The position numbers and the translations under genes are program-made. The notes beneath the pieces were generated by a model. It saw only the letters and a list, made by a program, of their open reading frames with translations, ran no database searches and was not told where the DNA came from. A stretch of DNA of 64,000 nt, from positions 54,154,421 through 54,218,420 of the forward strand of contig CM060978.1 of NCBI GenBank assembly GCA_030765065.1, read 5' to 3'. This DNA comes from Deroplatys truncata. Lineage: Eukaryota > Arthropoda > Insecta > Mantodea > Mantidae. Positions 41,501-44,500 of this stretch are shown in pieces. Every line of letters starts with the position of its first letter. Positions within the stretch are counted from its first letter, which is position 1.

Positions 41501-44500
41501 CATTTATAATATCCCCACAGCTACCTCACCTTCTCATAGTTACAACCACAATTATAGTGATAAGCAGCATATACCTTATCACAAGAGATGTTGGAAATGT
41601 TCTGGCATCTTCACAGGAAATTTTCATTCACACTCAATATTTCAGTATCTTGCCTAAAGTTTTCTTTTAGTTCTTATAATGTATACGGGTTTGTTGCTTC
41701 CATCTTATTTACTATGTGATCAACTGAGTCAGATAAATTTCTGTAATTGGATTTTTGTGAAATGATAGAGTAACTGACCCAAGTTTAATATTCTTATCTG
41801 ACAACTCATGATTCCATTTGTATGGCTATGTTTTGTCACCTAATATGGGGATTAGATAGAGGATGAGAAATATAGATGAGGTGCACAGGATGTTTTGCAG
41901 AGAAATACTAGGGCTACCGAAGTCAATTGTAAGACAGGTAGCACAATTAAAGATGGGCAGGGTGGCAACTAAGGGGAAGATAATGGAAAGAGCTTTGAAA
42001 TTTTGGTTCAGAACTTTAAATCTAGGAAAAAGTAATGTGTTAAGACAATGTATTGAATACCAAGAGAATAGCTTAATGAATGATGGATGGGTAAGTAATT
42101 TACGGAACATTTTGGAGAAAAATGGGTTAGAAGACATGTGGAGAAGGAGAGAAAATAACGTGAAAAATTTTTGGAAAAAGGCGAGGAAAAGACTGGAAGA
42201 TATAGAAATACAAACATGTTCAGTAAGATTGCCGAAAAGAGCTCATTAGTTTGTTATAGGCCAATGAAAAATACATGGGGTAGGGAAAAATATTTAGATA
42301 TAGTAAATAAAGAAGAGAGAGAATCTATTGCATGGGTAAGAACCGGAGCATGGAGGCTAAGAGGGTTAAGACAGAGTATTCCTCAGAACCAATGTCCGAT
42401 ATGTGGTGGTAATGAAAACATTGAACACACAGTATTTAAGTGCCAAGGAACAGGAAATTGGAGAAAAGAATTTTTTAATAAGAAGTGGTTGAAGGGGGAT
42501 AGAAATACACTTATGATCGAAATGATGTGCAAGGACACTAGAAGCATTGGACAGTTTTTGTGTAAAGTAAAAAATAAATGGCTTTGGACAGTGGAAAGAG
42601 AAAAGTAAGAGGTAGCGCATCTTACTTTGAATGGAAAACTGTAGTGAATGTGTGATGGTAAAGTAATCAATAAATGAAAAGTGAAAAACAAGTGGAAACG
42701 GGACATGAAAAATTAAACCAAGATAATTTATTGACGGGAAATTGTAAAATGTAAATAAACTGTAGTGATTATCTACTGAATGAGTGGCCATGGTCAAAGT
42801 GCAGTAGACAATCAAATTGTAAAACTCTTAGCACAATAAATACAAATTTAAATATGAGGATCACTCTGAAAGTTTTGAGAATGAGTAAAAATGAGCAGTG
42901 CTAAGCCAATGCAGCTTTTCCTAACTTTAGATTATTTCGGATAAAAACATGCGCAAGTCTGGGCATGTTCCAACAATGTGCATCACCAGCAACACGTGTG
43001 TATGTATAGCAGGTTTTGCTATGCCATATGCTAGGATGGATCTCAGGCAAGAGCATTTCTGTGCTACGATTTTCTATGACTTTAAATCTGTTTAGGCGAG
43101 AAAGAATGCTTTGAAAGACTGCATCGTGCATTTGGGATCTTTGTCCTTCATAATCCACCATTTGAGGCAGTATTTTTAACACTTAAATGATTTTCGTCAA
43201 ATTATATAATATGTAAATTCATTAACAGCCCGCCTTGAAGCAATATATGTATGTAATAATTTGTAAAATGTATGCAACAGTCATTGCATATGCTTATATT
43301 ATTGTATACATGTTCAATAATGTTATATGAATGTATTACATAATTTAATAATGTAGGAGCTATGAGAAATAGGTCAAAAATTGCTAACAAAGAGGTAACA
43401 ATGAGGTAACCTTGAGTCAATAATGAGTAAGAAAGTTTAACAGTACTACTTGTGATTCTTGGAGTAACAATAATGTAATTTTAGTGACAGTTAATAAAAA
43501 TAGCCGTTCAACAACCAGAAAAAGCTTTAGTTAAATGCAGGTATTCTATTGGAGTAGGATTAGCCAATCAGAAACTTGAAATACAGAAATTTACAAGTTT
43601 AGACGGTTGAAATATATTCACTTGCCTGCGGACATGTTTGTAACTGGATGCGTGATGCATCTTTGAGAAATATAATACGTATTCGTGCAAGACGAAAATA
43701 GTATACATATTAAAAAGTGCAAGTATTAAATAAAAGAATCTCACAGCTCTCAATATCAGTGAAGGATTTTTAATTTGTGTCAAGGATTAATAAAAAGGAG
43801 TGAATTAAAACTTAAAATCTGTGTAAACCTACATTCTTGTCACATCACACTCTGCCAAGATAATCCATGTCTCTAAAATAATACTGATGCAGCCAAGGCA
43901 AACATAAATATATAATATTTAAAGAAACAGTTAAACTACAAAGCTATTATTTTTAAACTTGGGGCAAAGGCTACCATCTAAACGTGTGGTTGCAACTACT
44001 TCAAGTGTTTGGCTCCTCAACAGTTGAAATATAATACAGCATCTATAAACTGACTTTCAATACGTAGCAGCAATTAACTACTTCAAATTGACGCCCAAAG
44101 CGTGGTGCAAATAACGTAACAAACCACCTACTTCAAACAAATTGGCATCCATATGTGGAGCTAAATAAATAAACAACTGCAACGTAAAAACAATACTCCT
44201 TCACATTTATCGATGGTATGCAGAGTTTAGAAGAGGAAGGGATTCCCTCAAAGATGAAGACCGAGCAGGATGGCCAGTTACAGCAACAATGGATGAAAAT
44301 GTGGTGAAAGCAGAGCGCATGTTGCAGTAAAATCATCATTGCACATATGGTCAGATTCAAGAAGCCTTAAATATTGGATTGGCAGCAGTGAAAGCAATCC
44401 TGCAAGAAAAACTTGACATCGGAAAGCTCTGCAGTCGCTGGATCCCCCACCACTTCACAAATGAGCAAAAACCAACACATATACTATGGTGCCAGGAAAT

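Follow-up and report, generated by a model that had tools for sequence, protein, structure and literature searches.

The long terminal repeats (LTRs) of LTR-B, a retrotransposon family in the mantis Deroplatys truncata, end in a real and well-ordered series of former primer-binding sites (PBSs). Taking the model as a whole, we consider it highly probable that the choice of PBS sets the LTR end and that former LTR/PBS junctions stack up in U5. The boundary-setting ratchet at its centre appears well supported: the identity of the PBS, the order of the units, their decay, the coincidence of their borders with LTR ends and a two-PBS intermediate can be read in the sequences themselves, and from these features we infer the priming itself and the way in which a new unit is born. 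LTR boundaries are usually viewed as a fixed property of a family; here, it is apparently the choice among several primer sites that sets the boundary, such that an LTR can become longer or shorter stepwise within one lineage. If this is true, discarded primer sites remain as an ordered series that provides a natural archive of tRNA priming and of errors in strand transfer, and the mechanism of LTR growth would become testable from sequence data alone. As a caution, LTR finders and solo-LTR dating that assume fixed ends can be misled.

LTR-B resembles Ty3/gypsy LTR retrotransposons in its reverse transcriptase match, its 4-bp target site duplications (TSDs), its tRNA-Lys PBS and its polypurine tract, but whereas LTRs normally have a single PBS immediately beyond their end, LTR-B has at least one worn PBS unit upstream of the working PBS. 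Short tandem arrays are also linked to the LTR elements of plants, which is where their likeness to LTR-B lies; unlike those of LTR-B, the plant arrays are, to our knowledge, neither built from PBSs nor placed so as to mark LTR ends. In HIV-1, viruses with multiple PBSs, some of which could pair with tRNA-Lys3, were recovered from SupT1 cells while an altered PBS was reverting, indicating that PBS repetition can arise in reverse transcription; these came from a laboratory mutant pressed to change its primer (PMC1084362). The LTR-B arrays, unlike that mutant, are natural, inherited and ordered, involve one primer and are built into the LTR. Rapid reversion of a mutated PBS is expected if the tRNA is copied into it. 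Such reversion to wild type is reported for HIV and SIV, in an account that mentions neither an array nor LTR growth (PMC4549124). In the open-access literature searched, we found no earlier description of tandem or multiple PBSs in LTR elements, the HIV-1 study (PMC1084362) being directly relevant.

LTR-B copies in the window

The window, by which we mean the whole 64,000-nucleotide stretch of DNA that was analysed, contains five LTR-B copies (Table 1). Exact 4-bp duplications flank all five, in agreement with the first-pass annotation, which had placed the LTR ends at TTCA or TCTCA followed by a 4-bp host duplication. In four of the five copies, a sequence composed of the LTR end (YTTCA), AAT and the PBS core is repeated about one to four times. 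By eye, there are four such units in B5, three in B1, two in B2, about one in B3 and none that is clear in B4, matching the counts previously given for the first four copies; the script that calls borders returned two units for B5 (where units were merged, as in a few other copies), three for B1, two for B2 and none for B3 or B4. The four LTR lengths reported for B5, B1, B2 and B3 were exact on re-measurement. The accompanying claim that length follows unit number holds for these four but fails once B4 is included, this copy being longer than B3 with no callable unit.

The region to which attention had been drawn, 43950-44203, is the last quarter of B5 and comprises four units in series, each containing a PBS-like core. 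The sequence CTACTTCA directly precedes three of these four units and is enriched in the window (7 found versus 2.3 expected, with 1 of 100 shuffles reaching 7). RNA folding of the B5 array revealed nothing unusual (z = -0.75).

Table 1. LTR-B copies, their PBS-like units and a dispersed repeat in the window
Feature	Position	Strand	Remarks
LTR-B copy B1	179..1146	+	968 bp; TSD TGGT/TGGT; end ATCTCA
B1 units	starts 1013, 1055, 1094	+	from the script border caller
LTR-B copy B2	7330..8283	-	954 bp; TSD AAAT/AAAT; end CTACTTCA
B2 units	starts 7439, 7380 (minus strand)	-	second core, TGGCGCCCAAAGTGTGG
LTR-B copy B3	10397..11280	+	884 bp; TSD AGAA/AGAA; end TTTCTCA
B3, about one PBS-like unit	from 11241	+	seen by eye; missed by the script border caller
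LTR-B copy B4	36134..37033	-	900 bp; TSD AATT/AATT; end CTTTCA; without clear unit
LTR-B copy B5, solo LTR	43163..44203	+	1041 bp; TSD CATT/CATT; end CTCCTTCA
B5 unit u1	44004..44047	+	most worn PBS core, TTTGGCTCCTCAAC; u1 class 0.94
B5 unit u2	44048..44085	+	AACTGACTTTCAATACGTAGCAGC; end CTACTTCA; u2 class 1.0
B5 unit u3	44086..44135	+	AATTGACGCCCAAAGCGTGGTGC, 4 edits off PBS; end CTACTTCA
B5 unit u4	44136..44203	+	AATTGGCATCCATATGTGGAGC; end CTCCTTCA at TSD; u4 class 0.93
Dispersed ~0.9 kb repeat, long copies	8713-9744, 11337-12246, 14681-15524, 26613-27452
Dispersed ~0.9 kb repeat, further long copies	30321-31323, 39612-40460, 46993-47892, 55423-56306

The core matches the PBS for tRNA-Lys(CUU)

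The 18-nt core is a perfect complement of the 3′ end of the host tRNA-Lys(CUU), which bears out the earlier reading of the motif as a real PBS. When the host genome (4.29 Gb) was searched with a pattern for the tRNA-Lys 3′ end, 228 places matched within 1 mismatch, compared to none for the reversed control. ARAGORN called a tRNA-Lys(ctt) in two of three fetched genes, L079 (..CACGTTGGGCG) and L081 (..CACGCTGGGCG), and no tRNA at the third, L080. The complements of the two 3′ ends with CCA added are TGGCGCCCAACGTGGGGC and TGGCGCCCAGCGTGGGGC, both of which are present at working PBSs, and TGGCGCCCAACGTGGGGC is given as the PBS for tRNA-Lys1,2 in the HIV-1 report (PMC1084362). Some working PBSs have a GCTGC variant, for which another host tRNA was considered as the source and rejected by reasoning that the extra 3 nt would make the acceptor arm too long. 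Most of the 228 matches originate from a tandem array of tRNA-Lys 3′ ends at 191.137-191.168 Mb of a single contig (G000:C9), in which the spacing is mostly in multiples of ~144 bp.

On its own, the short motif TTGGCGCCCA occurs in the window at chance frequency when up to 2 mismatches are allowed (18 found versus 18.6 expected); a strong signal emerges with the whole 18-nt core together with its border. In 34 LTR tails, 25 cores differ from the 18-nt tRNA-Lys PBS by no more than 4 edits, and the border [TC]CAA.Y directly precedes 22 of them. Controls consisting of 20 dinucleotide shuffles contained a mean of 0.05 cores (largest, 1) and no border, and 27 LTR bodies contained 1 core, again without a border. 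For the 34 tails, ends were assigned by hand, with L010, L026, L027, L031, L032, L048 and L070 included without an exact TSD; the set omits L009 and L019, whose tail start was unrecognised by the script, and L011, L015, L016, L022, L030, L033, L039, L041 and L044, whose 3′ end was unplaced.

LTR ends fall on unit borders

The LTRs have TG...CA ends, and an exact 4-bp duplication lies right behind a unit end in 29 of 44 copies, these being the five in the window, L009-L028 and L030-L048 (L019, L023 and L028 matched by eye). The unit end at these TSDs is TTCA or CTCA (YYCA) in 28 cases and TACA in one (L020), supporting the idea that unit borders coincide with LTR ends. Solo LTRs terminate after different unit classes. 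The suggestion that a new LTR end forms downstream each time fits the differing borders at which LTRs end, but "each time" is too simple: some arrays lack units, whereas others have gained them, and the array of L017 resembles a plain tandem duplication. This array, at about 1390-1788 (oriented), is the longest seen, with six near-equal 61-67-bp copies of u4 within one LTR, and ends exactly at the TSD AGCT.

Literal strings representing classes u1-u4 were located in 68 tails; the strings were taken from fetched copies, which match by construction. The order u1-u2-u3-u4, often gapped, is present in 52 of the 55 tails that contain at least two classes and is common to unlinked insertions, the exceptions being L022, L062 and L074. 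This common order indicates that units are mostly inherited with the element rather than made locally, and due to shared descent, the core counts do not represent independent events. In a midpoint-rooted tree of 34 LTR bodies, in which 12 of 31 inner branches are open and from which 14 LTRs with ends unplaceable by script are omitted, B3 and B4, both lacking a callable unit, are separated from the remaining 32 (100/100). In this tree, the LTRs of L051 form a pair, as do those of L023.

Working junctions and the decay of former PBSs

A PBS lies behind the 5′ LTR at the 29 LTR/leader junctions that were read (L023, L049-L068, L072-L078 and L084), and beyond the last PBS lies a leader that matches TCGAAGAGACAAGA or a variant of it. 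All 28 scored junctions have at least one unit upstream of the working PBS, and the same is true of L084 by eye. The upstream region is truncated or rearranged in L074 and L076, and another repeat interrupts L067. The LTR end can be fixed from a 3′ LTR with a comparable array in L051, L073 and the element C13 only; for the remaining junctions, the location of the units inside the LTR follows from solo LTRs that bear the same units. Wherever the end is fixed, the worn units upstream of the working PBS reside within the LTR, except for the last unit of L073.

Cores are increasingly worn with distance from the working PBS. The mean numbers of edits relative to the tRNA PBS at ranks 0 to 4 are 2.57, 5.07, 6.45, 7.7 and 8.83 (based on 28, 28, 22, 10 and 6 units, respectively), and the one unit at rank 5 has 9 edits. 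Over the 67 upstream units, decay is correlated with distance (Spearman 0.48, P = 3e-5, uncorrected for shared descent). The ranks in L064 are off by one because the border caller missed its last PBS (border ATAAAAT), and the prefix distances of the oldest unit classes may be at chance level. The 34 solo tails exhibit a weaker trend that is not monotonic (0.28, 86 units); long arrays with good cores occur in the solo tails L017 and L027, and the called number of units in solo tails ranges from 0 to 7.

Elements with paired LTRs

To judge from its sequence, LTR-B is a Ty3/gypsy-type LTR retrotransposon family, its reverse transcriptase having been typed on one piece of one element. This element, L051, has 8.8 kb between its LTRs by coordinates, and a 1151-bp piece of it matches RVT_1 (5e-9) and, in the PDB, most closely the reverse transcriptase/RNase H 4ol8 (1.7e-13), followed by the Ty3 polyprotein 7q5b. 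The short element L023 has two LTRs (5′, 395-1439; 3′, 3991-5067) and is flanked on each side by the TSD CTAT; it also contains a PBS and a polypurine tract, AAAAGGGGGC. Pfam searches of its gag-like open reading frames (ORFs) returned nothing above cut-offs. The same polypurine tract precedes the 3′ LTR in L051 and L067. The nucleotides adjoining the LTR, where read, are ATT on the left (L023, L051 and L067) and AAT on the right (L023 and L051), as expected if integrase were to trim three from each end. A DNA transposon with inverted ends was rejected, since paired LTRs, a PBS and a polypurine tract were found instead.

Which of the tandem sites serves as the PBS in complete elements, a question raised by the first-pass annotation, can be approached through three elements with usable 5′/3′ pairs. 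In L051, both LTRs contain the same units and end before the last (working) PBS; their tails are 94% identical, and the TSD (AGCT/AGTT) has one mismatch. In C13, the two tails likewise share their units and stop short of the last PBS, the 5′ TSD being unread. The third element, C3 (comprising L073, L082 and L083, with the TSD CCAT on both sides), has a 3′ LTR that stops where u4 ends, a single substitution there giving TTTA in place of TTCA. Its 5′ side continues after u4 with AAT-TGGCGCCCAACGTGGGGC-AGTCAACTCCAACAAAACAACTTCTTCA-AAT-TGGCGCCCAACGTGGGGC-TCGAAGAG, which amounts to two perfect tandem PBSs, such that the LTR ends before the last PBS but one. An LTR that ends at the upstream PBS thus occurs in one of the three elements, and C3 would correspond to a stage immediately preceding growth of the LTR by one unit, in which the upstream PBS was the one used. 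The C11 pair was rejected as a second two-PBS element, its shorter match ending at query position 320 and not at border 288 or 345, and L090 had no 3′ partner among 40 places scored.

A second LTR family with PBS arrays

The exact 25-mer TTCAAATTGGCGCCCAACGTGGGGC has 1180 occurrences in the genome (reversed control, 0), and at least four tandem pairs of it, 39, 57, 60 and 128 bp apart, are among 100 places listed, on one contig. Combined with the longer LTR-B leader, it matches 52 places within 2 mismatches, and because only these 52 bear the leader, most of the 1180 belong to other families or to units without the LTR-B leader. Eight tandem-PBS loci were read, two of which are LTR-B (L090 and L094) and six of which (L087-L089 and L091-L093) represent a second LTR family, LTR-C (..GCAAATTGCTAACACCAGATGGAGCTAC.., leader AGTTAAARTTATGTAA). 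LTR-C has PBS arrays of its own with different tails, its LTR ends being assigned without a TSD check. A 362-bp LTR-C tail query yielded 2354 candidate places, 40 of which were scored, and LTR-C is also present in L027 at about 5100-5600 (oriented).

Proposed origin of the arrays

We propose that LTR-B is primed by the host tRNA-Lys(CUU) and that the 3′ part of the LTR, the end of U5, would be a row of former LTR-end/PBS junctions, each unit consisting of AAT, the 18-nt PBS and an A-rich tail that ends in YTTCA. Because minus-strand synthesis starts at the tRNA site, the 3′ end of the LTR would lie just upstream of the last-used PBS. In a transcript with two PBSs, use of the upstream site would produce a shorter LTR and use of the downstream site a longer one; in the latter case, the upstream PBS would join U5, be copied into both LTRs and, being unneeded, decay.

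The first-pass annotation had envisioned LTRs that absorb both their own PBS and their leader. Old PBSs did become LTR sequence, but absorption of the leader finds no support: none of the 46 upstream cores that differ by at most 4 edits (one of 47, the working PBS of L065, being excluded) is followed by the leader TCGAAGAG at a cut-off of at least 6 of 8 bases, the highest match being 4 of 8. Resemblance to the working junction extends no further than nucleotide 18, beyond which each unit looks like an LTR end. In retroviruses, the stretch of tRNA that plus-strand synthesis copies, ahead of the modified base A58, is 18 nt long. The likeliest route to a new unit would be a slip at plus-strand transfer, after these 18 nt have been copied, in which the plus strand pairs, within its own U5 template, with a fossil PBS rather than with the end of the minus strand. 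The U5 tail would then be re-copied and the tRNA copied a second time, adding one unit with a new PBS. Plain tandem duplication also supplies units. Because fossil-bearing LTRs offer more landing sites, growth would feed on itself. This tRNA stutter is the leading but unproven step; that it adds units with a new tRNA-derived PBS, making the LTR end an ordered priming record in at least two families, is a tentative reading to which we give a little less than an even chance.

Two sets of observations bear on the origin of new cores. Of the 29 working PBSs, 16 (L051, L056 and L059 among them) carry a 3-nt insertion (TGGCGCCCAGCTGCGTGG), a proportion that is biased and not a population estimate, given that the leader query came from L023, which itself bears the insertion. 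The insertion is absent from every upstream core at these junctions and from all 34 solo tails, suggesting that newer cores derive from the tRNA or from insertion-free lineages and not from the adjoining PBS. Copying of the tRNA should erase the insertion; its persistence suggests either that the first ~9 nt suffice or that the other strand is kept. Additionally, L087 contains a pair of units that share a tail, apart from differences at 2 of 36 positions; one core departs from the tRNA by 4 edits, while the other, on the 3′ side, matches it with 0 edits, and L088 and L089 are similar, with near-equal tails behind worn cores and, further 3′, behind perfect cores. These three loci were chosen for having two perfect PBSs and constitute a biased sample.

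The same ratchet could operate on units that arise only by ordinary tandem duplication, through RNA slippage or unequal DNA exchange, with perfect cores appearing later as the unit used for priming is rewritten to the tRNA sequence. We regard this as a serious possibility, though not as the probable course of events. The near-equal 61-67-bp copies in L017 all keep the same worn core and are best viewed as a plain duplication; in L027, a perfect core lies 5′ of a worn core with the same tail, the opposite of the arrangement in L087-L089; and L073 demonstrates that the upstream unit can be the one used. However, duplication alone needs two steps, including priming at a worn copy despite a better PBS adjoining it, and in the biased sample of L087-L089, the perfect core is always the 3′ member of the pair.

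Exchange between elements may account for some of the mosaic structure of the tails, but it is unlikely that recombination or gene conversion, and not stepwise growth, is their main source. The 5′ and 3′ arrays of L023 differ completely although the LTR bodies are sisters (100/99), and those of L067/L071 also differ. Simple inheritance does not explain the L023 and L067 arrays; the mismatch may stem from conversion or from recombination between packaged RNAs while they are reverse transcribed. The breaks in unit order in L062, L074 and L022 are also of the kind that recombination could leave. Such exchange shuffles units, but it makes neither PBS-bordered units nor polar decay. Selection that maintains the row of PBSs as spare or auxiliary sites aiding tRNA capture is less probable still: perfect tandem PBSs do occur in two families, and a spare site could rescue priming, but the inner units are badly worn (7-9 edits) and the called unit number varies from 0 to 7 in solo tails, as expected without constraint. 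An ordinary minisatellite at the LTR end, unrelated to priming, would account for tandem 35-70 bp units of variable number and for the appearance of L017, but is very improbable in view of the match of the core to the tRNA-Lys PBS, the TSD-fixed LTR ends on unit borders (29 of 44), the polar decay and the unit order common to unlinked insertions, and is contradicted by L051 and L073.

Other features of the window

Broken ORFs that resemble mariner-like transposases lie near the LTR copies at 44331-44672, 48779-49485 and 35681-36121. Another ORF, at 26184-26615 on the minus strand, resembles the C-terminal exon of an ABCG-type transporter and is probably part of a host gene. A dispersed repeat family of ~0.9 kb is represented by at least eight long copies (Table 1) plus partial copies. 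Approximately 1 kb downstream of B5, at 45252-45394, there is a 40-bp tandem repeat of 3.6 copies that contains CGTAGCAGCAAA, which resembles unit u2, and this repeat may be a worn array of another LTR family.
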